Part shown: piece by piece, positions 8,041 through 52,316 of the stretch | Numbering within the stretch: the first letter of the stretch is position 1 | Layout: each line of letters begins with the position of its first letter | Assembly (NCBI GenBank): GCA_002069785.1 | Contig: MWCA01000002.1 | Location: 62,001-126,000 of the forward strand | Source of the DNA: Lentisphaerae bacterium ADurb.Bin242 | GTDB taxonomy: Bacteria; Verrucomicrobiota; Lentisphaeria; Victivallales; UBA1829 | Direction: 5' to 3' | DNA length: 64,000 nucleotides | Made by a program: the position numbers and the translations under genes | The notes under the pieces: model-generated | The model's database searches: none | What the model saw: the letters and a program-made list of their open reading frames with translations, nothing else | Told to the model about the DNA's origin: nothing

Positions 8041-10113
8041 ATGGACTTTCTCAAAATCGGACGCTTTGAACTCCGGAGACAGCAAATGAACCTCTGTATT
8101 GCACTTCCTGCGATTCTGGTGTTTGCCGGGTTGGTGTACGGCGGGTTCTTTCCCTACACATGGAAAGACAATCTGGCAGGAATTTTTCTTATCGTCGTGC
8201 CTCTGGGCGTACTTTTCCTTTCCCTCGATGTTTTCACACGGGATTTCCAGCAGGGGACAGCTCCGATCCTTTTTACGCTCCCGGTGAAACAATGGAAAGT
8301 CTACCTTGCGAAATACCTTTTCAGTCTTTTTCTTTTTCTTCTTATTGTCTTCCTCGTTTATGCAATCACGCTGCTTTCCTGCGACGACAACTCTCTGCCG
8401 AAGATTATTGGACGGCTCAACCAGTCGCGGGAAACCAACGTTGCGTTTGCCGCAGTATTTTATCCGCTGCTGCCTTTTACGATGATATTGCTGTATCTTC
8501 ATGCATCGATCACGATGTGGTGCATAGCCTTCAGGGGAACGGGCGGGATTGCCGCCGCTTTCTTCCTGATTCCGGGCGTGTTATTTCTGCTGCTGCCTTC
8601 TTTCATCTGGTTCACTCGTGACTATTCTGCTGCATTTTATGAATCGATTCCCCAGATTCTGATGTATGTAGTGATCTTCGTTTTCATCGGCGGAATCTTC
8701 TGGTGCCGCGGGATCGGGCTGGGACGTCCGATGTGGATTCTGGCGCTCAAATCGCTGGGCATTCTCTTTGCCGCCTCCCTTCTTTCGTTTGTCGTTTTCT
8801 ACGGGATTCAGATCACGGAATATATGACCACGCTCGCCAAGTTCGAAAAGACACCCGGCATCGAAATCCCGATGGGAAAGCTCTCCGTCATCCACGCAAT
8901 ATGGGAAGGCAAGGTTCCGAAGTCAGCCGACGATGTGCTGAATACCGACCTCAAGACCATGATTGAAATTCCCGTCGAAGACTACGGAAAATATTACGAC
9001 AGAGAACTGGCTTTCGTCGGTAATTCAAATCACTTCATTAACGAAGCTGTAAAAGCGAAGAATTTCGACAAGGCGCTCCGTCTTCTGGACGCCTATGAAA
9101 GCATACCGGAATACGTCATTCCGAAGGTCACATGGCAGACACGGATTCATACGGTTTCGGAACCGACGGGAAAGCCGGGAAAAATCGTTCAGCGGAAAAA
9201 GAAGGAGTTTATTGCTTTCTCCGATCCTTACACACCCGGATATTTCATCCAATACAAATATCTCCTCGGCACACCTTCTTCCGGGAAAGAGAAACAACCG
9301 TATTCCTATCTCGCGCTGCCGTTCGAAAAAGACACTCTGCCGATGATCGACGCGATGATCGCACGACTCGAAAAAAAGCCGGTCTGGAAAGACACTCCCG
9401 TCAAAATTCTGCCGCTGGGAGAAAAATCTCTATATTCTTCCGACGGAAAAAGATTTTCGACGGATAGAGCCTTGAGAGATATTCTTCCCGGCCTCGACAA
9501 GCAGGGTTTCGAACGTTTCCGCGCGGCCGCCGCATTCGTCTTCAAACCGTGCCAACAATATGAAAGCCTCTGGTTTCTGATGAGCGGGGGACGTCTGGCT
9601 CCAGCGATCACCTCCATGAAAGCCTGGATGTGGAGCGCACGCCTGCGCGCCGATATTGCGAAAGACGCGACATGCCATGAGATTCCTCGTTTTCCTGACC
9701 CGGCACAAAACAGCTCCGTCATTTACGATGACTATATGATGCACCAGAAATACCAGAACGGCATCCTCCGGAAATATCTCTGGCTGCCGCGCCTCAAGCT
9801 CCGGAAATACGCGCTGGAACACGGAACCCTCCCGGAAAAATTGTCGGACGCTTTCCCCGAAAATGAAATCATTCATACGGCAGGTGACAAAATTTATAAA
9901 CTTGAATACTGCGTCAACCCGAAACAGGAAGATTCCTATCCTCCGAGAAGCATCAACTGTCACGATTACACAGGAACGAGACGGCATCCGCATCTTCACC
10001 TGACTGAGAGGCAATACAAAGAAGGGAAGCAGTTTTTTTATAGTCCGTTTTTTGAAAAATGTGAACTCGATGAACCGGAACCGCCGCTTCCGGAAAAAAG
10101 AGGCGCGAAATGA
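8041..10113 (+). CDS. ABC-2 type permease paralog 1 with large C-terminal domain
   Basis: This is a 690-residue protein. About six transmembrane segments lie in the first 265 residues and include the ABC-2 signature TRDFQQGTAPILFTLPVKQW, the coupling region typical of such permeases. About 400 mainly soluble residues follow, far more than a usual ABC-2 permease. Near the C-terminus, LRKYALEHGTLPEKLSDAF resembles the start of the GspG-like head found in several other proteins in this window. AGGAAGG lies about 13 nt before the ATG. It is the first of three tandem paralogs served by one ATPase gene at 14309. Confidence 0.8.
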   Translation: MDFLKIGRFELRRQQMNLCIALPAILVFAGLVYGGFFPYTWKDNLAGIFLIVVPLGVLFLSLDVFTRDFQQGTAPILFTLPVKQWKVYLAKYLFSLFLFLLIVFLVYAITLLSCDDNSLPKIIGRLNQSRETNVAFAAVFYPLLPFTMILLYLHASITMWCIAFRGTGGIAAAFFLIPGVLFLLLPSFIWFTRDYSAAFYESIPQILMYVVIFVFIGGIFWCRGIGLGRPMWILALKSLGILFAASLLSFVVFYGIQITEYMTTLAKFEKTPGIEIPMGKLSVIHAIWEGKVPKSADDVLNTDLKTMIEIPVEDYGKYYDRELAFVGNSNHFINEAVKAKNFDKALRLLDAYESIPEYVIPKVTWQTRIHTVSEPTGKPGKIVQRKKKEFIAFSDPYTPGYFIQYKYLLGTPSSGKEKQPYSYLALPFEKDTLPMIDAMIARLEKKPVWKDTPVKILPLGEKSLYSSDGKRFSTDRALRDILPGLDKQGFERFRAAAAFVFKPCQQYESLWFLMSGGRLAPAITSMKAWMWSARLRADIAKDATCHEIPRFPDPAQNSSVIYDDYMMHQKYQNGILRKYLWLPRLKLRKYALEHGTLPEKLSDAFPENEIIHTAGDKIYKLEYCVNPKQEDSYPPRSINCHDYTGTRRHPHLHLTERQYKEGKQFFYSPFFEKCELDEPEPPLPEKRGAK

Positions 10114-10154
10114 ACAAAAAATCTGAAACAACAGGAAACAGGAACAACGAATGA
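10110..10154 (+). other. Possible 14-codon coupling ORF between permeases 1 and 2
   Basis: ATG at 10110 overlaps the permease-1 stop, and its own TGA overlaps the ATG of permease 2, so both junctions read ATGA. The predicted peptide is MNKKSETTGNRNNE. The same arrangement recurs at 12208-12252 with one residue changed. It may keep ribosomes translating across the junction, or may be a chance ORF preserved by recent duplication. It has no domain. Confidence 0.3.
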
Positions 10155-12211
10155 CGGACTTTCTTAAAATCGGACGTTTCGAACTCCGGAGACAGCGGTT
10201 GAACCTCTGTATCGCGTTTCCTCTGATTCTCCTGTTTGCACTGGCGATATTCGGCGGCTTTTTCCCGGAAAACTGGAAGGAAAATATGGTCACGTTTTTT
10301 CTGGTTATTGTGTCATTGGGAGGCTTTTTTCTGTCGCTCGACGTCTTCACACGGGATTTCCAGCAGGAAACGGCTCCGGTCTTTTTCACTCTTCCGGTGA
10401 ATCCGTGGAAAGTCTATCTGGCAAAATACCTCTTCAGCGTCTTCCTCGTTTTCCTGATCCTGTTTCTTGCATTCATGCTGCATGCGTTCTTCGGAGAAGG
10501 AAGAACCCTGCAATGGTTTCTGTCCCGTCACGACATGTCCGGCCAGTTCCGGGATGCAGTATCTTCCACACTGTTTTTCAGCGCTCTCCTGTTGTATTTT
10601 CACGCCTCGATTGCGATGTGGTGCATTGCGTTCAGAGGCATATCCGGAGTGGCCGCCGCTTTCTTCCTAATCCCGGGCGTATTTCTCCTGTTGTCGCCCT
10701 CTCTTGTATGGGTTTCCCGGGAATACCACCTTGTCTCATTAATCGATCTGGAAGTCGCTCTTCAACTCTTCCTCTATGCCCTGGTCTTCGTTTTCATCGG
10801 CGGAATCTTCTGGCGGCGCGGAATCGGGTTGGGACGTCCGATGTGGATTCTCGCGCTCAAATCGCTGGGGATACTCTTTGCCGCCTCCATCCTTTCGTTC
10901 GTCGTTTTCTATGGAATTCAAATCAATGAATACATGAACGTGCTTTGCAAGTTCGAAAAAATGCCCGGCATGGAGATTCCGAAAGGGAAAATCTCCGTCA
11001 TCCGCGCAATCTGGGAGGGTCAAGTCCCGAAGTCAGCCGACGACGTGTTGAACACCGATCTCAAGACCATGGTCGAAATCCCCGTCGGGGACTATGGAAA
11101 ATATTTCAGCCGTCAATTTCATTTCATGCGGGAAGCTTCCCGTTTCATCAATGACGAAGTCAAGGCGAAGCGCTTCGGCAGGGCGATTCAGCTCATGGAT
11201 GCCTATGAAATTCTTCCGGACTGCATCATTCCGGGAATCTCGTGGAACGCGTATATCCTTTTCAATCCCGGCACCATGCAGGACGGTATATCGGGAAACT
11301 CGAAAACAAAGAAACTGCGCCTGTGGGTTGAATCCAAACAGCCCAAAATCAATTTCAGCCGTCATTTCATATTGGAAACGCGTGATCTGAAGTCGATCTG
11401 GTCCACCGGGCTGACACTGCCGTTCGGGAAAGATACGCTGCCGTTTCTCGACGTCATGATCGCACGGCTTGAAAAGGCTCCGGACTGGCAGGAAATCCCT
11501 GTCAAAGTTCTGCCGTCCGGCGGAGACATCTTTTATGTTTATTCCTCGGGAGGAAAAAAACACACATGGAAGGTAAGAACCTTGCGGGATATTCTGCCCG
11601 GAGTTGAAAAACAAGGATTCGGCCGGTTCTGCGCGGCGGTTGCCTTCATTTTCAGAGTCGATAGCCCCGACGAATTCTTCTCCAGCATTCTGCAGGGAGG
11701 CCGCCTGATGCCCTCGATTTATTCGATGAAAGCATGTATGTGGAGTATCAAGAGACGTGCCGATTTGGCAAGGCGCATCCGGGAGAAAGGACTGCTCGTC
11801 TTCCGTTGGCCGCACCAGGAAAATGACGAATACACGGAAGACATCAACCTGATAATGGCTTACAAGTTTTCTGTCCGCAGGAAATATCTCTGGCTGCCGC
11901 GCCTCAAACTGCGGAAATACGCGTTGGAACATGGAACTCTTCCTGAAAAACTTTCGGACGCCCTTTCCGAAGCTGAAATTACACATTCTTGTCACGACGG
12001 AGTTCTCAAGCTGGAATATTGTGTGAACCCGCGATATGCCAAAGACTATCCGGAAGGAACGATTGTCTGCAGCGGATATGACGGTCCGAGACGTTTTCCG
12101 CATCTTCACTTGCTGCAGCGGGGCGGCAAAAATATAGTGGGTAGCCTTTATGGAGAATTCGGACTGGACGAGCCGGAACCGCCGCTTCCGGAAAAAAGAG
12201 GCGCGAAATGA
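10151..12211 (+). CDS. ABC-2 type permease paralog 2 with large C-terminal domain
   Basis: This 686-residue protein aligns with the preceding gene throughout: N-terminal FLKIGRFELRRQRLNLCIAF, the ABC-2 signature TRDFQQETAPVFFTLPVNPW, conserved segments GLGRPMWILALKSLGILF and VPKSADDVLNTDLKTM, and the tail motif LRKYALEHGTLPEKLSDAL. The middle third of the soluble part differs most. The ATG at 10151 is preceded by an AACAGGAACAACGA stretch that also precedes permease 3. It probably forms a homo- or heteromeric channel with its paralogs and the ATPase; the substrate is unknown. Confidence 0.8.
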   Translation: MTDFLKIGRFELRRQRLNLCIAFPLILLFALAIFGGFFPENWKENMVTFFLVIVSLGGFFLSLDVFTRDFQQETAPVFFTLPVNPWKVYLAKYLFSVFLVFLILFLAFMLHAFFGEGRTLQWFLSRHDMSGQFRDAVSSTLFFSALLLYFHASIAMWCIAFRGISGVAAAFFLIPGVFLLLSPSLVWVSREYHLVSLIDLEVALQLFLYALVFVFIGGIFWRRGIGLGRPMWILALKSLGILFAASILSFVVFYGIQINEYMNVLCKFEKMPGMEIPKGKISVIRAIWEGQVPKSADDVLNTDLKTMVEIPVGDYGKYFSRQFHFMREASRFINDEVKAKRFGRAIQLMDAYEILPDCIIPGISWNAYILFNPGTMQDGISGNSKTKKLRLWVESKQPKINFSRHFILETRDLKSIWSTGLTLPFGKDTLPFLDVMIARLEKAPDWQEIPVKVLPSGGDIFYVYSSGGKKHTWKVRTLRDILPGVEKQGFGRFCAAVAFIFRVDSPDEFFSSILQGGRLMPSIYSMKACMWSIKRRADLARRIREKGLLVFRWPHQENDEYTEDINLIMAYKFSVRRKYLWLPRLKLRKYALEHGTLPEKLSDALSEAEITHSCHDGVLKLEYCVNPRYAKDYPEGTIVCSGYDGPRRFPHLHLLQRGGKNIVGSLYGEFGLDEPEPPLPEKRGAK

Positions 12212-12252
12212 ACAGAAAATCTGAAACAACAGGAAACAGGAACAACGAATGA
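12208..12252 (+). other. Possible 14-codon coupling ORF between permeases 2 and 3
   Basis: This is the second copy of the short ORF at 10110-10154. It encodes MNRKSETTGNRNNE and has ATGA overlaps at both ends. The surrounding junction is almost identical to the first, so recent duplication alone could explain its conservation. Confidence 0.3.
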
Positions 12253-14312
12253 CGGACTTTCTTAAAATCGGACGTTTCGAGTTGCGGAGACAGCGGTTGA
12301 ACCTCTGCATCGCATTTCCCATGATCTTTGTGCTTGCCGCGCTGGCGTTCGGCGGAATTTTTCCGCATACTTGGAAGGACGATCTGGCGGGATACTTCAT
12401 GCTCATCGTGCCGCTGGGCGGACTTTTCCTTTCCCTCGATGTCTTCACCCGGGATTTTCACCAGGGAACGTCTCCGATCTTCTTCACGCTTCCGGTAAAA
12501 CCGTGGAAAATCTACCTTGCGAAATACCTTTTCAGCGCATCCCTTTTCCTCGTGATTCTGCTGATTTCCGTCGCGCTGACCGCATTCTTCACCAGCATCG
12601 GCACTCTGCCGTGGATTTTGGGACGGATCGACCGTCCGCACGATACGCATTCCGCGGTTATCGCCGCCTTTTATTCCATAACGTCTTTTGCCGTGATCCT
12701 GCTGTATCTTCATGCCTCGGTCATGATGTGGTGCATTGCGTTCAAGGGAAGCAGCGGGATTGCCGCATCTTTCTTCCTGATCCCGGTTGTGTTCTTTCTG
12801 CTTCTGCCTTCCTTTATCTGGTTCTCGCGGGATTATCCGGTGACGCTTTATGGATGCATTCCACAGATTCTGGTATATGTGCTGATTCTTGTTTTCATTG
12901 GAGGCCTTTTCTGGCGACGCGGAATCGGGATGGGACGTCCGATGTGGATTCTGGCGCTTAAATCGCTGGGTATCCTCTTTACCGCTTCCGTGCTTTCATT
13001 TGCAATCTTCTACTCTGTCCAGATCACGAAATACATGGTCACGCTCGCCGAGTTCGAAAAGACGCCCGGCATCGATATCCCGGTGGGAAAGATCGCCGTT
13101 GTCCGCGCAATCTGGGAGGGCAAAGTCCCGAAATCGGCCGACGATGTGCTGAATGCCGACCTGAAGACCACAATTGAAATCTCCGTCGGAGACTACGGGA
13201 AATACGCGGACCGTCTTCAGCGGTTCTTCCTGGATTCGAATCTTTTCATCACTCGCGAAGTCAGCCTCAAACACTACGACAGGGCGCTCCGACTTCTGGA
13301 CGCTTACGAAAGCATACCGGAATCCATTATCCCGCAAGTGACATGGTTCACATTCTTCCAGGAAAGAGGAAAATTCGACGAGAATGGAAGGTGGAAAAGG
13401 AAATACCGAAAAGAAATATTTGTCCAGGCGGATCACTTCATTCCCGGCAGTTTTTATCAGGGCAAATACAGGCTGAAAGGAAAGAGCAACGATGAGAAAA
13501 AAGACATGCCTTATCTCATTCTTCCTTTTGAAAAAGACACCCTTCCATTTCTGGACAGAATGATCGAACGAATGAAAAATCAGTCGGTATGGAGGGAGCG
13601 TCCCATCAAGGTTCTGCCGCTCGGAACGGAAGTCATCTCGACATTCTCCCAGAAAACCTGGGAAAGATATTATTTCGAGCAAGGCTTGCGGACATTTCTG
13701 CCCGGGATCGAGAAACACGGTTTTTCCCGGTTCCTCGATGTGGCCTTGTTTGTCTTCCGAATGGTTCCTGAATGGAGGTTCGCTCTGAATTATCCGCGGG
13801 GAGGAGATTTGAGACCGTCCATCCGATCGATGAAGGCATGGATCTGGAGCGTCGGGAAGCGCGCTGAGATTGCAAAAAGTGCCGCAAGCGGGGAAATTCT
13901 ATCTTGCCTTAATTGGTCGCAGGATACCGGGGCCTTCTATTATAACGACGTCAGGTTGAGAGAGGATTGGTACAATGATGTATCGAAAAAATATTTCTGG
14001 CTGCCGCGTCTCAAGCTCCGGAAATACGCGCTGGAACATGGAACCCTCCCGGAAAAACTCTCCGACGCCCTTTCCGAAGACGAGATCATCCATAAGGTCA
14101 ACGGCAGACTGTTCCGACTCGAATACAGCGTCCATCCGAAATACAAAAAATCCTATCCGCGCGGAAGCGTCATCAGCGGTGATTACAAAGAAACACGACG
14201 ACATCCCCGTCTGCATCTGGTAGAGAGGAAACTGCCTTTTTATGATTTTATCTATGAATGTGAACTTGATGAACCGGAAGAGCCGCTTCCGGAAAAAGGA
14301 GTCTTGAAATGA
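12249..14312 (+). CDS. ABC-2 type permease paralog 3 with large C-terminal domain
   Basis: This 687-residue paralog has the same architecture: N-terminal membrane block with TRDFHQGTSPIFFTLPVKPW, then GMGRPMWILALKSLGILF, a divergent soluble region, and LRKYALEHGTLPEKLSDAL near the end. Its stop overlaps the ATPase start as ATGA, so translation is probably coupled to the ATPase. Three unequal copies beside one ATPase suggest either subunits of one complex or alternative permeases sharing an engine. Only the family assignment is firm. Confidence 0.8.
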   Translation: MTDFLKIGRFELRRQRLNLCIAFPMIFVLAALAFGGIFPHTWKDDLAGYFMLIVPLGGLFLSLDVFTRDFHQGTSPIFFTLPVKPWKIYLAKYLFSASLFLVILLISVALTAFFTSIGTLPWILGRIDRPHDTHSAVIAAFYSITSFAVILLYLHASVMMWCIAFKGSSGIAASFFLIPVVFFLLLPSFIWFSRDYPVTLYGCIPQILVYVLILVFIGGLFWRRGIGMGRPMWILALKSLGILFTASVLSFAIFYSVQITKYMVTLAEFEKTPGIDIPVGKIAVVRAIWEGKVPKSADDVLNADLKTTIEISVGDYGKYADRLQRFFLDSNLFITREVSLKHYDRALRLLDAYESIPESIIPQVTWFTFFQERGKFDENGRWKRKYRKEIFVQADHFIPGSFYQGKYRLKGKSNDEKKDMPYLILPFEKDTLPFLDRMIERMKNQSVWRERPIKVLPLGTEVISTFSQKTWERYYFEQGLRTFLPGIEKHGFSRFLDVALFVFRMVPEWRFALNYPRGGDLRPSIRSMKAWIWSVGKRAEIAKSAASGEILSCLNWSQDTGAFYYNDVRLREDWYNDVSKKYFWLPRLKLRKYALEHGTLPEKLSDALSEDEIIHKVNGRLFRLEYSVHPKYKKSYPRGSVISGDYKETRRHPRLHLVERKLPFYDFIYECELDEPEEPLPEKGVLK

Positions 14313-15181
14313 GCGATATGGCAGTCAGTTTTCAGAACGTCGAAAAGAAATTCGGGCGCAAACAGGTGCTCCGGTCCATGAACATGAACGTCCCGGCGGG
14401 AAGCGTTTACGCGCTCCTCGGCTGCAACGGCGTCGGCAAATCCACGAGCGTGAAAATGATGGTCGGCCAGCTCGAACCGAACGCGGGCGAAATCCGCGTT
14501 CTCGGACGCGATCCGGTCCGGGACGGCGTCGAGCTCCGGCGCGAGACCGGTTATGTAGCGGAAAACCAGCGTCTTTTTAATGAACTCACGCTGGCGGAAT
14601 ACTGCGCTTTCCTGAAAAAATTCTATCCGGACTGGAACGACGAAATGTGTTCCTCCATTCTCCGGCGTTTCAAACTTCCGGCGGACGCCAAACTCGGCTC
14701 CTTCTCGCGCGGGATGTATTCAAAGGCGGCGCTGGTCGGGGCGCTCTGCCGGAAACCGAAACTCCTCGTGCTGGACGATCCCACGCTCGGACTCGATACT
14801 GCCGCGCGTCATGAATTCATGGACATGATTCTGGAAACCTTTTCCGATTTTGAACACACTGTCCTGATTTCTTCGCACATCATCAACGAACTGGAAGGAC
14901 TCTGCGACCACGCGGGAATCGTCCGGGACGGGAAAATGGTGCTCGAGGGAGACCTCGATTCGCTGAAACGCAACACCTCCAGACTTGTCATCCGGAAACC
15001 GGCGAAGGAACTGCCTCCGCTTCCGGGCGAAGTCAAGCGGATACCGAAGCTGGACGACCTCGAAATCGTGTTCGGCGGCGCCCGGGAGCCGGTCGAAAAA
15101 GCGCTGGCGGAAAACGGGATTGCGAACAGTGAAATCCATTCGCTCTCTCTGGAAGAAATCTTCCTTGCATATTCGGAATAA
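14309..15181 (+). CDS. ABC transporter ATP-binding protein
   Basis: This 290-residue nucleotide-binding subunit has Walker A GCNGVGKST (about residues 36-44), Q-loop region YVAENQ, the signature segment GSFSRGMYSK in place of LSGGQ, Walker B LLVLDDPTLGLD and the switch His in LISSHI. FSRGM-type signatures are usual in YtrB/BcrA-like exporters. A C-terminal extension of about 75 residues follows, as in that group. It is the only ATPase in the operon, so it likely powers all three permeases. Confidence 0.93.
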   Translation: MSDMAVSFQNVEKKFGRKQVLRSMNMNVPAGSVYALLGCNGVGKSTSVKMMVGQLEPNAGEIRVLGRDPVRDGVELRRETGYVAENQRLFNELTLAEYCAFLKKFYPDWNDEMCSSILRRFKLPADAKLGSFSRGMYSKAALVGALCRKPKLLVLDDPTLGLDTAARHEFMDMILETFSDFEHTVLISSHIINELEGLCDHAGIVRDGKMVLEGDLDSLKRNTSRLVIRKPAKELPPLPGEVKRIPKLDDLEIVFGGAREPVEKALAENGIANSEIHSLSLEEIFLAYSE

Positions 15182-15706: not shown

Positions 15707-17238
15707 TGGAAACGGCAAGGCCCACTTTCGGCATCCTGCCTGGAGATATTTTCGTTAACCTGCTGCTCATCACACCCTTGCTGGGATTCTTATGCGGAAT
15801 CGGATTTTATTTTTATGTGATCTGGAGTTCAAAAAACAGCAGGTTGACACGAGTTCTTTATACGCTCCTTTTTCCTGCATTATTTGTTCTGATCGTGTTG
15901 CCTCCTCTTTATTCGGTCAAAACAGGGTACAGGCACAACGCTAACGGTTTGGGCCTCACAAAACTCAGACTTGCCATTTCCCGATCTTCGAATGATCCCG
16001 CCGAGTCCGCCGAACTTCTCAAAATTCTGCGGGAATGGCGGAAAAATGAAGATCGCGATTACAGGGATTTATGGAACACCCTTCACAACCGCTATCAGGA
16101 TAAGATGTCTCGAGTGCAGATGTTTCCGGAAGAAATTGAACTCAAACTCCCCCCGGATGAAACTCCCGGATGCCTTCCGATCATCAAAGCGCCGCCGATC
16201 AAGCCGGGTCCGGAAGTGGATTATTCCATGGTCAATGGCTTTGCCGAACGGGTCGATGAGAGGAAACAGAGAATGGCGGAACCCTATTGGAGAGGGAAAG
16301 GGATTCTAGTGACCGGAAAACTCAATGTTGAGGGGATGAAGAATGTGAAACGGGTGGCTGCAAAAACTTCGTTTGTCACGGAGGACGGTGTTTTTGCACA
16401 ATCCGTCTGTATTGGAAAAACGCTGCGCTTTGTCCAACACGGTTATGAGCCGCTGGACATCCATCTTGCCCCGGAACGTTTCCGCGGAATACGTTCTTTT
16501 GATGTGGGCAATATCGTGCTCCGGAAGGCGTCTCCGGAACACCTTTCTCAAATATCGTTCACCGTCGAGCTGCCGCGGGGAATCAAAAATGCCCTTGTCA
16601 CCCTGAGGAACGGCAATCTCCCCTCCTGTTCGAATGACGACGGTCATGAATGCGCAGCGCCGACCCGTGTCGTGATGGAACAGTTCAGAGTCGAACCCGG
16701 AAAGAAGACGGTCATCACCGGTCTTTCCCGGATTCCGTATGAACTGGAATTCACCGCCAATAATTGTGTCCGGCGGACCAAATATTTCAACGGTGGAATA
16801 CGATCAATCGATTTCGGGACGGTTGCGCTGGCGGAGGCAAAGGAAGCCGTTTTCCGGGTGCTGAACCTGAAAGATAAAAAACCGGAGTGGAAAAAGTCGA
16901 AAATCCTGATCGACGGAGGAAACCAAAGCGAACTGAACCTGACGACATACCATATTGGTTCGAATGCATATTGGTATCGAATTTACTTGCAGCCTGATCC
17001 GAAGTCGGAAAAGATATTCGGAGAATTTCATTGGGCTCCGACCATCTTCACCGACTACGGACGTATTCAGGACGGGACAACCCTCCGTCCGGAAGCGCTG
17101 CCTCAGCCCATCGGAAAATTCAGGCAGAATGTTTTTCTTGAACCCGATCACTTATACCGGCTTGAATCGGATTCATTCCAGCTGGACTTGCTGATCGAAA
17201 TGCTGCCGACTTCCGAACGACAGCCGCTGATGAAATGA
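15703..17238 (+). CDS. Membrane-anchored protein with carboxypeptidase-regulatory-like beta domain
   Basis: This 511-residue protein has two transmembrane segments near the N-terminus (residues about 15-40 and 50-70). A charged helical stretch follows, then a mostly beta region. The segment KGILVTGKLNVEGMKNVKRV to GKTLRFVQHGYEPLDIHL has the pattern of carboxypeptidase-regulatory-like repeats: a short name-strand, a variable loop and a GY-containing strand. This domain usually sits outside the cytoplasm. It is translationally coupled to the preceding gene through ATGA. No enzymatic motif is visible. Confidence 0.6.
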   Translation: MMETARPTFGILPGDIFVNLLLITPLLGFLCGIGFYFYVIWSSKNSRLTRVLYTLLFPALFVLIVLPPLYSVKTGYRHNANGLGLTKLRLAISRSSNDPAESAELLKILREWRKNEDRDYRDLWNTLHNRYQDKMSRVQMFPEEIELKLPPDETPGCLPIIKAPPIKPGPEVDYSMVNGFAERVDERKQRMAEPYWRGKGILVTGKLNVEGMKNVKRVAAKTSFVTEDGVFAQSVCIGKTLRFVQHGYEPLDIHLAPERFRGIRSFDVGNIVLRKASPEHLSQISFTVELPRGIKNALVTLRNGNLPSCSNDDGHECAAPTRVVMEQFRVEPGKKTVITGLSRIPYELEFTANNCVRRTKYFNGGIRSIDFGTVALAEAKEAVFRVLNLKDKKPEWKKSKILIDGGNQSELNLTTYHIGSNAYWYRIYLQPDPKSEKIFGEFHWAPTIFTDYGRIQDGTTLRPEALPQPIGKFRQNVFLEPDHLYRLESDSFQLDLLIEMLPTSERQPLMK

Positions 17239-17281
17239 AACGCCTATTGTTGAATGACAAAAACGCCAAGGAGGTGCCTGA

Positions 17282-17572
17282 ATGAACCAGATAGTCTTCA
17301 TGGACATCAAAAGCAGGAATGCCAATTTCATTTATCTCGCCGTTCTATGGCTTGCGGTTCGCGCGTTCATGGGCTGGAGCTACACCAGCTGGCACTGGCT
17401 CAGGCCGAGAGACGCACGGCTGGATAAAACGTCTTTTTTATGCTTCGTGACCGCCTTGACACTGCTCGCGGTCGAATTCATTTTGAATTATCCACCGGAC
17501 AAACTCTGGCTCCGGATCGTCAGTGCCGTTCTTGCTTTGCTTTTCCTGGGATTTTCCATGCCGACCTCATAG
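17282..17572 (+). CDS. Small three-helix membrane protein
   Basis: This 96-residue protein consists almost wholly of three hydrophobic segments (FIYLAVLWLAVRAFMGW, SFLCFVTALTLLAVEFIL, IVSAVLALLFLGFSM). A strong ribosome site, AAGGAGGTG, precedes the ATG. It lies in the same co-directional run as the ABC genes. No family is recognised. Confidence 0.55.
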   Translation: MNQIVFMDIKSRNANFIYLAVLWLAVRAFMGWSYTSWHWLRPRDARLDKTSFLCFVTALTLLAVEFILNYPPDKLWLRIVSAVLALLFLGFSMPTS

Positions 17573-17662
17573 CATTCGGGGGAGAAACAAACGCAAAAAA
17601 ATATGGACAGGAACAGAAAAACTTACGGGAATATCAATCCAATAATGAAACAGGAGGCGGCT

Positions 17663-19504
17663 ATGAACTTTTTATCGGACAAACGGCTTTTCTATCCGGG
17701 GGTTCTGGTGCTGGCATGGATCATTCTTACACCACTGCACAGCTATCCGTGGTGCATGTTTGCCCTGACGGGTCTCCTTGCCGCACTTGCCGGAGTCTGG
17801 TTCGCCGGAGAGCGGAGCATGAAACACTTCCTGATCGGGCTCGGAGGCACAATCCTGCTTTCCTTTCCCGCCGTTGTCGCCAATGCACTGGAAAACCGTC
17901 CGCTCAAAACCATGTTGAAAGAGCTCCTTCCGAACGATTACCAATGGCGAAGAGCCTTTCTTGCCTCCGAGACGATCCCCGACTGGACGACATGGACTTT
18001 GATCTGCCTCGTAATTCTGGTAACCATTGTCCTTTTCATCGTATTCTTCAACTGCCGTATTCTCGTCGGCAATCCATATCTTTCATTTCCCGCCGCCATT
18101 GTCGCGCTTGGGATTGCAAGTCTCACCTTCACATGGACCTTTTACGGTCTTCTGGCATTTCACGTGTTCCTCACCCCGAAAAGATATACGGGAATCTTTT
18201 TCATGGAAAAACACATGATTCCCGCGCTCTGCATAACGATCATCCTCTTATTTCTGCTCCTGTTTTTCTGGACATTCCTGAATCTCCGCCGCAACGGTCC
18301 GAACTGGAAAAAGCTGCTGAAGGACATCGGACTCACCGCGGGGGTCTGCGTGTTTGTCTGGCTGGCAGCCGCGGTGGTCGCCCTCGCCTACGGACACGCC
18401 GCCATCGCGGAATCGGCGCACCTGTTTCCGATGGCGAAACGTCCCGGCGTTCCGCAGGCCATGCTCGACGCGGATGAAAAACAGAACGAATGGTTCCGTA
18501 AGTTCAATGAAGAGAACCCGGATTTTCAGCTTCCAATGGAATCGGTCCGTTCCTGGTTTACCGGTATTGGGAATCCCGTCACGGAAAAAATGAGAAAGAC
18601 GACTCTCGACATCTTTCAGTCCCCGCAAGGGGCGGATTACTTCCGCCGGAATTCGGAACTGATCGCCCGTTACAAAGAAGAACTTCCGCTGTATGACTGG
18701 AACTTCTCCGGTTCCATTTCCGCACTGAACGGATGGCGCGCTTCCGCAAGACGCACCTGTTCACGGGCCGAGCTTCTGGCCTATCTCGGACGCGAAAAGG
18801 AAGTGCTGCCGGCGCTGGAGGAACTTGTCGGATTTGAAAATGCAATTGAAAAAAATCAGCAAACGCTGTATGAATCCATCATTCTCAGGGCAATCTGGTT
18901 CATTCGTTCCGTGACGATCATTCAGTTCGGCCCGTTATCGCCGGAATATGCTTCGTTTTACCGGAAGGAACTGGACACGCTTCTCAACTCCCGTATCCGC
19001 ATCCCGAATGAAGCCCCGCGGTATGCACGGGAAATCGAAAGGGTATTCCGTCTGTGTCCTTATAATCCGGAATCCGGCAATTCTTTGTACAATCGTATTC
19101 TTTCCTTTCCATTTTCGGCAATCATTTTCGGACGAGACGCATTCGCGCTCATGAAGCACAAAGAAGAAATCGAGCGGCTTGCAAACCAGTCGGTAATCGG
19201 TAAAACGGAGACCGATTCCTCCCGGACAACGGCTGTCGAAGAAGCCAGGATGACCTGTCTCCATACGGCATACACGAAATCAATCATGACGGCCGCGCTA
19301 GCCTTGAAATGGTATCGCTGCGAAAAGGGGCATTACCCGAAAACGCTTCAGGAACTGACACCGGAATTCCTGAAACAGCTCCCGGTCGATCCGGCCGACG
19401 GCGCGCCGCTCGTCTATGAACTTCTGCCGGACGGTTCTTTCCGTCTGGATATGCCGTCATCCAAACACCTCAAGATCAAATCAAGATTGGAGTTTCTCGA
19501 ATAA
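17663..19504 (+). CDS. Multi-pass membrane protein with C-terminal pseudopilin-like head
   Basis: The ATG at 17663 is chosen because AGGAGG lies just before it and because the downstream paralog starts with the same MNFLSDKRLFYPG; an upstream ATG at 17603 is possible. The 613-residue protein has about seven transmembrane segments in its first 260 residues, a helical soluble middle, and a C-terminal segment beginning ALKWYRCEKGHYPKTLQEL and continuing PVDPADGAPLVYE. That pattern resembles the head of GspG-type pseudopilins. Many planctomycete and Lentisphaerota proteins end this way, to my recollection without a known role. Confidence 0.65.
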   Translation: MNFLSDKRLFYPGVLVLAWIILTPLHSYPWCMFALTGLLAALAGVWFAGERSMKHFLIGLGGTILLSFPAVVANALENRPLKTMLKELLPNDYQWRRAFLASETIPDWTTWTLICLVILVTIVLFIVFFNCRILVGNPYLSFPAAIVALGIASLTFTWTFYGLLAFHVFLTPKRYTGIFFMEKHMIPALCITIILLFLLLFFWTFLNLRRNGPNWKKLLKDIGLTAGVCVFVWLAAAVVALAYGHAAIAESAHLFPMAKRPGVPQAMLDADEKQNEWFRKFNEENPDFQLPMESVRSWFTGIGNPVTEKMRKTTLDIFQSPQGADYFRRNSELIARYKEELPLYDWNFSGSISALNGWRASARRTCSRAELLAYLGREKEVLPALEELVGFENAIEKNQQTLYESIILRAIWFIRSVTIIQFGPLSPEYASFYRKELDTLLNSRIRIPNEAPRYAREIERVFRLCPYNPESGNSLYNRILSFPFSAIIFGRDAFALMKHKEEIERLANQSVIGKTETDSSRTTAVEEARMTCLHTAYTKSIMTAALALKWYRCEKGHYPKTLQELTPEFLKQLPVDPADGAPLVYELLPDGSFRLDMPSSKHLKIKSRLEFLE

Positions 19505-19570
19505 GAAACAGAAAAAGCTCAAATTGACTATTGCGTCTGTTTTCAAACCGCGGATGAACAGGGGAAGACA

Positions 19571-19903
19571 ATGAATTTTTTATCGGACAAACGGCTTTTC
19601 TATCCGGGGATTCTGGTGATTGCGTGGATTATCCTGGCTCCGTTGTACACCTATCCGTGGCTGATGTTCTCCCTGACGGGTCTCCTTGCGATGGGCGCGG
19701 GAATCCTGTTCGCCGCAGCCCGAATCGGAGTCGGCAGGAACGTGACTACGGGCAAAGTGGTCGAACTCCGTGGAAACAAAAAATATGTCATCGCGCACGC
19801 AACAACGCCCCTGCGTGCGCTCTATCTCGCCGAGTGGATCAACGGACGTGTCTTCTTCCCGGATGAATCGGACCCGGACGCGGATCATGAAAACAACAGG
19901 TAA
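19571..19903 (+). CDS. Short chimeric paralog of the preceding membrane protein
   Basis: This 110-residue protein begins MNFLSDKRLFYPGILVIAWI, almost the same as the gene at 17663, for about 50 residues and two hydrophobic segments. It then has a different, soluble tail (VGRNVTTGKVVELRGNKKYV and onwards). GGGGAAG precedes the ATG. It is either a partial duplication that gained a new C-terminus or an independent short gene sharing the membrane leader. Function unknown. Confidence 0.5.
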   Translation: MNFLSDKRLFYPGILVIAWIILAPLYTYPWLMFSLTGLLAMGAGILFAAARIGVGRNVTTGKVVELRGNKKYVIAHATTPLRALYLAEWINGRVFFPDESDPDADHENNR

Positions 19904-19924
19904 GTTTGCCGGAAAGGGGATACC

Positions 19925-20608
19925 ATGAAGTTCAGCAGGACTTTTTTTCGCAACCCGTGTCATTATGCGGAAGGTGCTTTTTTTGTTTTCCTGACCGGAA
20001 TCATTCTTCTGCCGATGATCCTGAAATCCAACATTCTGGACAAAAGCCGTATCCTATCCGAAAACTTTCAGCGGGAACTCGTTGAATTATTCATCGGGAA
20101 CATACTGGAAACGTATGGCGTGCTCTGGTCCCTGTGTTTTTTGTTGATTCTCACGGCGCTTGTGCTGGAATTTTATTGGGAGCCCCACACGGGCAAAAAG
20201 AAAGTACTCGCTTTGATCGGGTATTCACTGGCTCTTTTTTTCGTGCTGTTCAACCTTTTTCTACTCAGCTGTACAGACTATTCGGAGATATCGCGGAGAA
20301 TCTCCTGTATCAGCAGGTTGAAGGTCATCGGACTTTCCCTGAATCAGTATGCGGCGGAGAACAACGGTTATTTTCCCCCCGATCTGGAGACACTCAGTCT
20401 TGACAAGGCGTCGATCCGCTGTCCGGGCGGCAGGAACGATTCGGACTGCGGCTCAAACTATCGCTACCATGGAAAAGGAAAGAAAAATACGGATGAACCA
20501 TTCATTATAGTCGAAGACCGTCCGGAAAATCATCCGGGGACATTTCACGGCATTCTGTATTCTGACGGTCAGGCGGAAAAGTCCCGGCGATCTCTCCGAC
20601 GGAAATAA
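19925..20608 (+). CDS. Three-helix membrane protein with H-X-DG pseudopilin-like head
   Basis: This 227-residue protein has three transmembrane segments in residues 1-115 (FFVFLTGIILLPMIL; LWSLCFLLILTALVLEF; LALFFVLFNLFLLS). The segment ISCISRLKVIGLSLNQYAAE follows directly and matches the post-helix region of pseudopilins (compare [18 protein letters not shown] at 38261). The tail HPGTFHGILYSDG resembles their C-terminal H-X9-DG signature, with spacing X10 from the first His. It thus carries a pilin head on a multi-pass anchor, without a prepilin cleavage motif. AAAGGGG precedes the ATG. Confidence 0.6.
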   Translation: MKFSRTFFRNPCHYAEGAFFVFLTGIILLPMILKSNILDKSRILSENFQRELVELFIGNILETYGVLWSLCFLLILTALVLEFYWEPHTGKKKVLALIGYSLALFFVLFNLFLLSCTDYSEISRRISCISRLKVIGLSLNQYAAENNGYFPPDLETLSLDKASIRCPGGRNDSDCGSNYRYHGKGKKNTDEPFIIVEDRPENHPGTFHGILYSDGQAEKSRRSLRRK

Positions 20609-20629
20609 TTACCCACGGATCTGAAAAAC

Positions 20630-21253
20630 ATGAAAAAGTTTCTGAAAATTATCTGGCGGACCTGGATTTCATTGCTTGCCTGTGCGGCTCTTTTCTTCGG
20701 AGTGATGATTGTGGTGCAATATCACAATCTATCCTTATACCAGAAGCCTTATCTGAAGATTCCCATCTCCCCGCCCTTTCCGAAGAAAGAGGTTATTCCG
20801 CTTGAGATCAAAATTTTGACTGAAGTGCGGACAATGAAAGTTTTTCTGGTTCCCGCGTTGAAAGACCCGCTTTCCAATTGGTTGGAACTCTCCCTCGTCA
20901 GTCCTTCAGGAGAAGATTGGAGACTTCTGCTTTTTCCGGCGCAGTGTGAATGGGAAGGAAAAAATTTTCCAGCCTGTTATGTTTCCATGCTCAGAAAATG
21001 CCGCTATCAGTTGAAACTGAAAATCAAGGAGCCGCCATCCGATCTGCCGTCCGAAACAACACTCATTCTGGCGCCATGTTCCGAATTCGGCGGCCTGATT
21101 CTTGTATTTTACAAGGCGGGCCTCCTAGCAGCGCTCTTTCTGCTGGCGGGATCCTTCATTATCTTCAGCTGCGTGAAGCCTCCCGCTCAACCCGTTGCCA
21201 GAACGCGGAATTTGAATTCAGACACGGAAGAACCGAAAAACCGGAAACAATAG
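20630..21253 (+). CDS. Two-helix membrane protein of unknown function
   Basis: This 207-residue product has transmembrane segments at about residues 10-32 (WISLLACAALFFGVMIVV) and 158-180 (AGLLAALFLLAGSFIIFS), with about 125 beta-rich residues between them that should lie outside the cytoplasm, and a charged tail. No recognised family. It is the last gene of the long plus-strand run and starts 21 nt after the preceding stop. Confidence 0.5.
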   Translation: MKKFLKIIWRTWISLLACAALFFGVMIVVQYHNLSLYQKPYLKIPISPPFPKKEVIPLEIKILTEVRTMKVFLVPALKDPLSNWLELSLVSPSGEDWRLLLFPAQCEWEGKNFPACYVSMLRKCRYQLKLKIKEPPSDLPSETTLILAPCSEFGGLILVFYKAGLLAALFLLAGSFIIFSCVKPPAQPVARTRNLNSDTEEPKNRKQ

Positions 21254-21303
21254 TTCGACTGCCAGACACAATGAAACGTTTTCCTGTTTATTTCCTCCGC
21301 TTC

Positions 21304-21385
21304 CTCATTTCTCCCGTGACGAGTGGAAATGAGTCATTCTCATCCTCCCCTAGAAAACTCCTGGGAAAAATGGGGAGGGTTTCCT
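21304..21385. terminator. Hairpins between convergent genes 21253 and 21530
   Basis: CTCATTT (21304-21310) pairs with AAATGAG (21327-21333), and CCTCCCC (21344-21350) pairs perfectly with GGGGAGG (21372-21378), followed by GTTTCCTTT. They lie in the 276-bp gap between two convergent genes, where termination is expected. The T run is interrupted, so this is a candidate only. Nothing else was seen in this gap. Confidence 0.35.
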
Positions 21386-21529
21386 TTAAAACAGAGAAAA
21401 TCACTGTTCCAAAAGCAATCATTCCGGTTTGCGACGGAATCACGAAGCCGTCGGCACGGCATATCTCTGCCTATTTTAAGACCGGGCATAAAAACAGGAT
21501 GGAATCCGAAGTAAAAAAGCTGCGCCGGA

Positions 21530-51165: not shown

Positions 51166-51540
51166 TCAGGGGGTAGAGTTTTTCTGCTTCATGACAGCGT
51201 CATACAGTTCCTTTTCATTCCGGAACGAACCACGGTAACGCTTGCCGTGATACGAGGAGATGATCCCGTCCGACCACAGGACCAGCGTGCCACCAGGATG
51301 CGGGGCCTCGATACTGTCGTAAACCATCGGATACTCATGATCGCTCTTTTCCGGAAAAGGGAAAAATCGGTATGACCTGCCGTGCCTTCCGGTACAGTTG
51401 CGAATCTCCGGTTTCAGAGCGAGGACCTCAAATCCGGAGGGCTCGGCATCATGATCGCTCCTGTAATTTTCGATGGCAATATAAATCAATCGGAGCTGAT
51501 TGCGGCAGGACATCTCCAACGCTTTCGGGCGGGCGTAACA
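51166..51540 (-). pseudogene. Pseudopilin-like head, out of frame with the upstream membrane gene
   Basis: This frame encodes ARPKALEMSCRNQLRLIYIA followed by ENYRSDHD, which matches the neck of pseudopilins, and ends with APHPGGTLVLWSDG, an exact H-X9-DG signature. The ATG at 51513 lies inside the neck and has GGAG directly against it, so it is a poor start. The last helix of the 52316 gene ends at the same place in the other frame. A single-base indel between about 51530 and 51560 therefore best explains the split. It may be a true mutation or an assembly error. Confidence 0.55.
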
Positions 51541-52316
51541 GGGCAAGGGATAATGGAATAAAAAAACAAAAGAGCAACGGCAATTCCCTGGATCCAGTTT
51601 CCGATCCGTGCATGAGACATGGGATGCCCCCAACGATCTTTTTTCGGCAGAAGTCCCAGAAAGGCCAGCAGAAGAAGAAAAAAGAAAATCAGAGAAACGC
51701 TGCCGCCATAAAAGAAAAAACAGGAGAAAACGACCTGAAGGACCGCAAACGGCCAGCGTCCGATATAAAGCCAATGAAGTCCGGCGACACCGCCGAAAAC
51801 CCACAAAAGTGCGTAAATCTTGCGGGACCGCGGCGGAAGGGTATCGTGACGGCGATCCAGTTCGAAAGCAATACAGCCGAAAGTCCCCAGCAGAACACCG
51901 TACAACATGCCGGGACTGGAGCCGCCCGCACGGGCATACTGCCGCAGGAGTTCGGGCTCTTCCGGAACCGCGAGGAAAACATTCCTGAAAGTTTCCGTAT
52001 CCAGATGCGCATACAGAACGCCGATTTCCCCGCCGATCAGAAATCCGGCCGCGGCGCTTCCGGCAAGCACGGCAAGCTGAATCCAGCGAAAATCCCGGCA
52101 GAAGCCAAGAATCAGCAGGGCGGCCGCCAGACCGGCCAGAGCACCGTCACGCATCCCGATCAGGAGCGCATCAAATCCGGATCCGATCGCAAAATACGTA
52201 GGGCGGACACAGATGTCGAAGTAAATCGGACTGAGATACACATTGATCGCATTCAGAAGCAGGCCGGTAACAGCCCCTCCGGCAACCGCCGCAAGAAGAA
52301 AGAAGATCTTTCTCAT
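51486..52316 (-). CDS. Multi-pass membrane protein, probably frameshifted from its pseudopilin head
   Basis: This 276-residue frame has six to seven hydrophobic segments (FFLLAAVAGGAVTGLLLNAI; GALAGLAAALLILGF; LAVLAGSAAAGFLIGG; IYALLWVFGGVAGLHWLY; LIFFFLLLLAFLGLLP; IQGIAVALLFFYSIIP) and then an implausible tail of about 20 residues (VTPARKRWRCPAAISSD). In the neighbouring frame the sequence goes on as a pseudopilin-like head (51166-51540). The intact protein would be about 380 residues, a larger relative in plan of the 19925-20608 protein. The start overlaps the preceding stop as ATGA. Confidence 0.6.
   Translation of the reverse strand: MRKIFFLLAAVAGGAVTGLLLNAINVYLSPIYFDICVRPTYFAIGSGFDALLIGMRDGALAGLAAALLILGFCRDFRWIQLAVLAGSAAAGFLIGGEIGVLYAHLDTETFRNVFLAVPEEPELLRQYARAGGSSPGMLYGVLLGTFGCIAFELDRRHDTLPPRSRKIYALLWVFGGVAGLHWLYIGRWPFAVLQVVFSCFFFYGGSVSLIFFFLLLLAFLGLLPKKDRWGHPMSHARIGNWIQGIAVALLFFYSIIPCPVTPARKRWRCPAAISSD

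Follow-up and report, generated by a model that had tools for sequence, protein, structure and literature searches.

The window, by which we mean the whole 64,000-nucleotide stretch of DNA analysed, encodes a protein of 227 residues, P0001, whose C-terminal head shares homology, by profile comparison, with the DUF1559/H-X9-DG heads found on ordinary prepilins and stands on an anchor of three transmembrane (TM) helices. Polytopic anchoring of such heads has had more than one origin. We consider it probable that P0001 is a pseudopilin-derived protein that is neither cleaved nor polymerised and displays its head in a fixed position, likely for docking or regulation. The purpose of the large sets of DUF1559 pseudopilins in the genomes of this group is an old question, and a version of the head that is unable to enter a filament would separate the role of the head from that of the filament. 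In Planctopirus limnophila, DUF1559 paralogues form the largest group, and two of them are essential (PMC10632474).

Head, neck and anchor of P0001

The reading frame of P0001 (Table 1) starts with the ATG at 19925, downstream of a purine-rich stretch, and its stop codon ends at 20608. Hydropathy places TM3 at residues 94–112. This helix is followed by the neck ISRRISCISRLKVIGLSLNQY and by a C-terminal part with RCP, Y-R-Y-H-G and then NHPGTFHGILYSDG, so the third TM segment followed by a DUF1559-like neck and tail, as given in the preliminary description of this DNA, is present in the frame. The H-X9-DG spacing given there for P0001 was not found: ten residues separate H203 from D214-G215 in the alignment, which makes the motif H-X10-DG. 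The one-residue insertion is common to P0001 and its close relatives of the NHPG form, whereas canonical prepilins have nine residues at this place. Cys128 of the neck and Cys166 of the RCP motif are a candidate pair for a possible disulfide.

Table 1. Features of P0001, its neighbours and the second candidate locus (positions in the window)
Feature	Position	Strand	Basis
P0001, 227-aa protein with three TM helices and pseudopilin neck and head	19925..20608	+	ORF, homologues, model
TM1 (residues 15-33), added anchor helix	19967..20023	+	Hydropathy; model helix 11-41
TM2 (residues 65-83), added anchor helix	20117..20173	+	Hydropathy; model helix 46-85
TM3 and neck (residues 91-145), predicted as one long helix, positional equivalent of alpha1 by alignment, without G|FTLIE	20195..20359	+	Models; prepilin alignment
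Cys128 of the neck	20306..20308	+	Invariant column in four alignments (A1, A3, A4, A7)
Head (residues 146-227), with RCP motif (C166) and Y-x-Y-x-G	20360..20605	+	hhalign against canonical heads
H-X10-DG motif, NHPGTFHGILYSDG	20528..20569	+	N202 and H203 unchanged in every alignment
633-aa upstream neighbour, 7 TM, GspG-like tail, co-directional with P0001	17603..19504	+	
110-aa ORF, an incomplete copy of the beginning of the 633-aa protein	19571..19903	+	BLASTP, 45% identity, 115 columns
207-aa neighbour, TM at each end	20630..21253	+	
TM2-like polytopic part and DUF1559 neck and head, in two overlapping frames	51166..52316	-	Frames, Pfam

When the neck was left out, the profile of P0001-family heads aligned with that of canonical prepilin heads (Victivallales pseudopilin heads with a class III signal) at an hhalign probability of 95.8, an E value of 7.6e-9 and a score of 52.0. 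As controls, the canonical profile was column-shuffled 200 times, with a best score of 21.8, and reversed, with a score of 11.8. The H-X-DG pseudopilin head that had been proposed to sit on a polytopic anchor in P0001 is thus upheld, as none of the 200 shuffles came near the real score. Positions common to the P0001 family and the canonical heads include the neck Cys, P, L, CP, Y-x-Y, D and NH.

Like the prepilin-like DUF1559/H-X9-DG-CTERM (TIGR04294) proteins of Planctomycetes and Lentisphaerae, P0001 combines a neck of the form RRISC-x2-LK-x-I-x5-Y with CP, Y-x-Y-x-G and NH...DG, and like them it belongs to a large family of paralogues within the same genome. In contrast to these proteins, it has no G|FTLIE class III signal, two additional TM helices and H-X10-DG, and it falls under the Pfam cut-off: DUF1559 (SBP_bac_10, PF07596) matches residues 122–152 with 15.9 bits against a cut-off of 23.3 (E 0.014), and no pilin-type NCBIfam match to P0001 was found. 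Relatives with the same layout match the Pfam family at up to E 3.2e-10. A Pfam match of P0001 to O-antigen ligase (E 0.019) was rejected as driven by hydrophobicity.

TM3 is an internal, third helix. In alignments with canonical prepilins it falls on the prepilin alpha1 helix and is, on this evidence, its positional equivalent. Both the cleavage site and Glu5 of pilins matter for subunit packing; P0001 has no class III/PilD cleavage motif ahead of TM3, and its Glu5 is also gone. The earlier statement that the cleavable prepilin helix is missing therefore holds for the cleavage motif and Glu5 but not for the helix itself, which is kept as TM3. A lone pattern match in one relative (GWRQAE in L003) was considered as a cleavage motif and dismissed as coincidental, being charged and not conserved. 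Two intermediate forms, L180 and L177, keep the string GMLLPAL..AREKARRI.C, so that the first part of the helix alone is new; in L180 this string is preceded by an N-terminal part that is DUF4190-like and zinc-ribbon-like. In most members with three TM helices, the segment before TM1 and the TM2-TM3 loop are positively charged and the TM1-TM2 loop is neutral or negative (exceptions are L174 and L028). Hydropathy and charge together suggest a cytoplasmic N terminus and a periplasmic head for P0001.

The AlphaFold model of full-length P0001 has helices at residues 11–41, 46–85 and 90–145, followed by four short strands, and a second run on residues 90–227 with a deeper alignment agrees with it, the helix spanning model residues 2–56; confidence is moderate for both (pLDDT 72.5 and 79.6). 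As in pilins, a single long alpha1-type helix is predicted to run into the periplasmic head. The predicted combination of a long pilin-type helix and a small strand-containing periplasmic head is shared with GspG/GspH pseudopilins and type IV pilins, from which P0001 differs in being polytopic and in lacking the cleavage motif and Glu5, and to which its models show no significant PDB fold match. Foldseek searches of PDB with these moderate-confidence models gave no significant pilin match, the best pilins lying in the noise (PilV 5v23, E 3.2, TMt 0.58; PilA5 6xxe, E 7.4). A structural match to pseudopilin heads, suggested earlier as a check, was thus not obtained, although the homology of the head is strong by sequence. 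Given the strong sequence link, and since no head of the DUF1559 type was found among solved structures, we do not take the absent fold match as a refutation. A search of PDB sequences with a mixed family profile that included canonical members matched GspG, geopilin and pilins through the N-terminal part and detected no DUF1559 head. The corresponding search with heads only returned weak matches to nanobody frameworks (C...Y.Y pattern), which were judged spurious.

Relatives, selection and other anchors

A search of 61 genomes with P0001 found two paralogues arranged in tandem in the genome of P0001 itself (G000:C197, E 5e-23 and 2e-21) and proteins from other genomes of the order at up to E 5e-22. 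A scan of contigs with P0001 as a single protein found no relatives, and a four-member alignment as the query did find them. Of 198 genomes of the class, 11, from five genera, encode proteins of the full-length P0001 type, with anchor and head (defined by E < 1e-40). These paralogues and genomes supply the further TM blocks followed by such a neck for which a search had been proposed. The relatives belong to Victivallales/Lentisphaeria and include a protein (L088:8007-8570, with a provisional start) of the cultivable Victivallis vadensis DSM 14823. In genus g5, most genomes have one member of a second sub-family with three TM helices, which has a His-rich N-terminal stretch. DUF1559 loci number at least 119 in the genome of P0001, which also encodes two peptidases of the PilD family; in a crude census of 50 of its DUF1559 loci, 29 had a prepilin motif, and most of the others had been missed by the neck pattern.

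The ratio dN/dS (Nei-Gojobori), calculated for pairs of orthologues and paralogues, was 0.06–0.32 for the head and 0.08–0.60 for the anchor, and was lower for the head in all pairs except L009/L013 and L011/L013. The head is under purifying selection in the pairs of relatives tested; P0001 had no close orthologue to pair. It is very unlikely that P0001 is an evolutionary prepilin relic with no current function, even though the full-length family is narrowly distributed and the second candidate in the window is frameshifted, since purifying selection acts on both head and anchor of the relatives, residues are conserved across families, and most genomes of genus g5 have one orthologue each.

That second candidate (51166–52316) is not one open reading frame. 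Frames 52316–51486 and 51804–51166 overlap, and a -1 shift near 51525–51530 would bring the TM2-like polytopic part into frame with a DUF1559 neck and H-X9-DG head. A search of 30 relatives yielded no intact homologue, and the shift may be an assembly error, a pseudogene or a true frameshift.

In a tree of 77 necks with heads, polytopic anchors require nine state changes, a count that comes from few columns and many weak forks and does not distinguish gains from losses. The 14 rows of the P0001 type cluster, and the remaining polytopic rows are scattered among prepilins. Forcing the polytopic rows, minus the frameshifted one, into a single clade cost 92 log-likelihood units (p-AU 0.00025); this set had been defined on anatomical grounds, prior to inspection of the tree. 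The preliminary description had spoken of two independent cases in the window: independence of polytopic anchors is borne out by their scatter and by the rejection of one clade, but its second case is the frameshifted one.

DUF1559-type heads also occur on single non-prepilin anchors. A tandem array in Victivallis vadensis mixes polytopic and single anchors; it comprises four heads on different anchors (L034:5491-8121 (+), then 8455-9477) followed by a trypsin-like protein. Two proteins of 769–773 aa with 16–18 TM helices (L114:6162-8483 (+) and L136:4398-6707 (-)) have a C-terminal DUF1559 head and no other Pfam family. Exported proteins of about 510–650 aa with an internal pilin helix and a head are encoded at L137:3018-4796 (-), L149:3361-5163 (-), L150:3498-5447 (-), L135:13959-15692 (-) and L138:1969-3492 (+); they have a signal- or lipoprotein-like start and ..MLPALxxxREKxRR.xC with the head at the end, L138 being more divergent. 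DUF4190-like, zinc-ribbon-like or other parts precede the pilin helix and head at L180:1459-2445 (-), L143:3241-3957 (+), L142:3336-4199 (+) and L177:868-1998 (+). At L006:1465-1905 (-), the head follows a lipobox-like LISC, a possible lipoprotein anchor.

In Tuwongella, 91 proteins combine N_methyl with SBP_bac_10, while a few have Sec/SPI signals or carry SBP_bac_10 alone (PMC8567305). Non-prepilin signals must therefore be regarded as already known for this domain; polytopic SBP_bac_10/DUF1559 anchors were not reported in the literature searched, mostly papers available without subscription. Modular pilins, among them PilB of Streptococcus sanguinis, show that pilin parts recombine with other domains (PMC8179133). 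There, a module has been added to a pilin that is still processed and polymerises, whereas in P0001 the change lies in the membrane region ahead of the pilin module, and the processing signal is lost.

Possible role and genomic surroundings

The two extra helices and the lost cleavage site would keep the P0001 head permanently at the inner membrane, and we infer that the protein is neither processed nor polymerised. P0001 would present in a fixed position the head that its DUF1559 paralogues, which number more than 100 and are mostly prepilin-like, carry on extractable subunits. Its head would bind whatever the mobile heads bind, a likely docking or regulatory role for which a secreted substrate, an envelope ligand or a partner in the secretion platform are candidate partners. 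Counted against fixed display are the missing significant PDB pilin fold match, the moderate confidence of the models, the lack of a conserved neighbourhood, and the presence of PilD-family peptidases and type II/IV-type ATPases in every genome checked.

The repeated rise of anchored versions in the class suggests that the head is useful beyond filament building, and argues for the head as a useful binding module in itself. On a wider scale, we suggest only tentatively that in Lentisphaeria the DUF1559 head has repeatedly been freed from filaments and rebuilt as a fixed inner-membrane receptor, with ligands in common with the more than 100 mobile paralogues; helices would have been added ahead of a degenerate pilin helix. 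A reading of the head as a general ligand-binding module, spread by fusion and serving as a sensor or adhesin unlinked to type II secretion or pili, appears rather unlikely. The range of carriers would fit such a module, as heads are found on proteins with 3–4 TM helices, on those of about 770 aa with 16–18, on exported proteins of about 510–650 aa, on a lipoprotein-like anchor and next to DUF4190 or zinc-ribbon parts, and there is no conserved partner gene. However, the neck and TM3 retain a pilin helix that a free module would not need, and PilD-family prepilin peptidases and type II/IV-type ATPases were present in 17/17 relatives' genomes checked, none of which had an anchored head without PilD or the ATPase.

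The same machine components, together with the alpha1-like helix retained in TM3, would fit a stationary role of P0001 within a type II/IV machine, such as that of a subunit at the base or for initiation, on which pseudopilins nucleate via alpha1. We regard this as improbable, since Glu5 and the cleavage site are gone, the full-length family is missing from most genomes of the class, and no recognisable machine component is found among the neighbours of P0001 in the window. The gene lies 22 bp after the 110-aa ORF and 22 bp before the gene for the 207-aa protein, and a scan of positions 17200–21500 found no sigma-70-like promoter. With the ABC ATPase left aside, the window neighbours have no homologues in the relatives' loci, and no neighbourhood is conserved. 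In genus g5, a 5-TM protein is encoded next after the orthologue, but the sub-family there differs from that of P0001. Farther upstream in the window (8041–14312 (+)), three tandem proteins of 686–690 aa resemble ABC-2 permeases and have similar tails; the ABC ATPase (14309–15181) comes after them.
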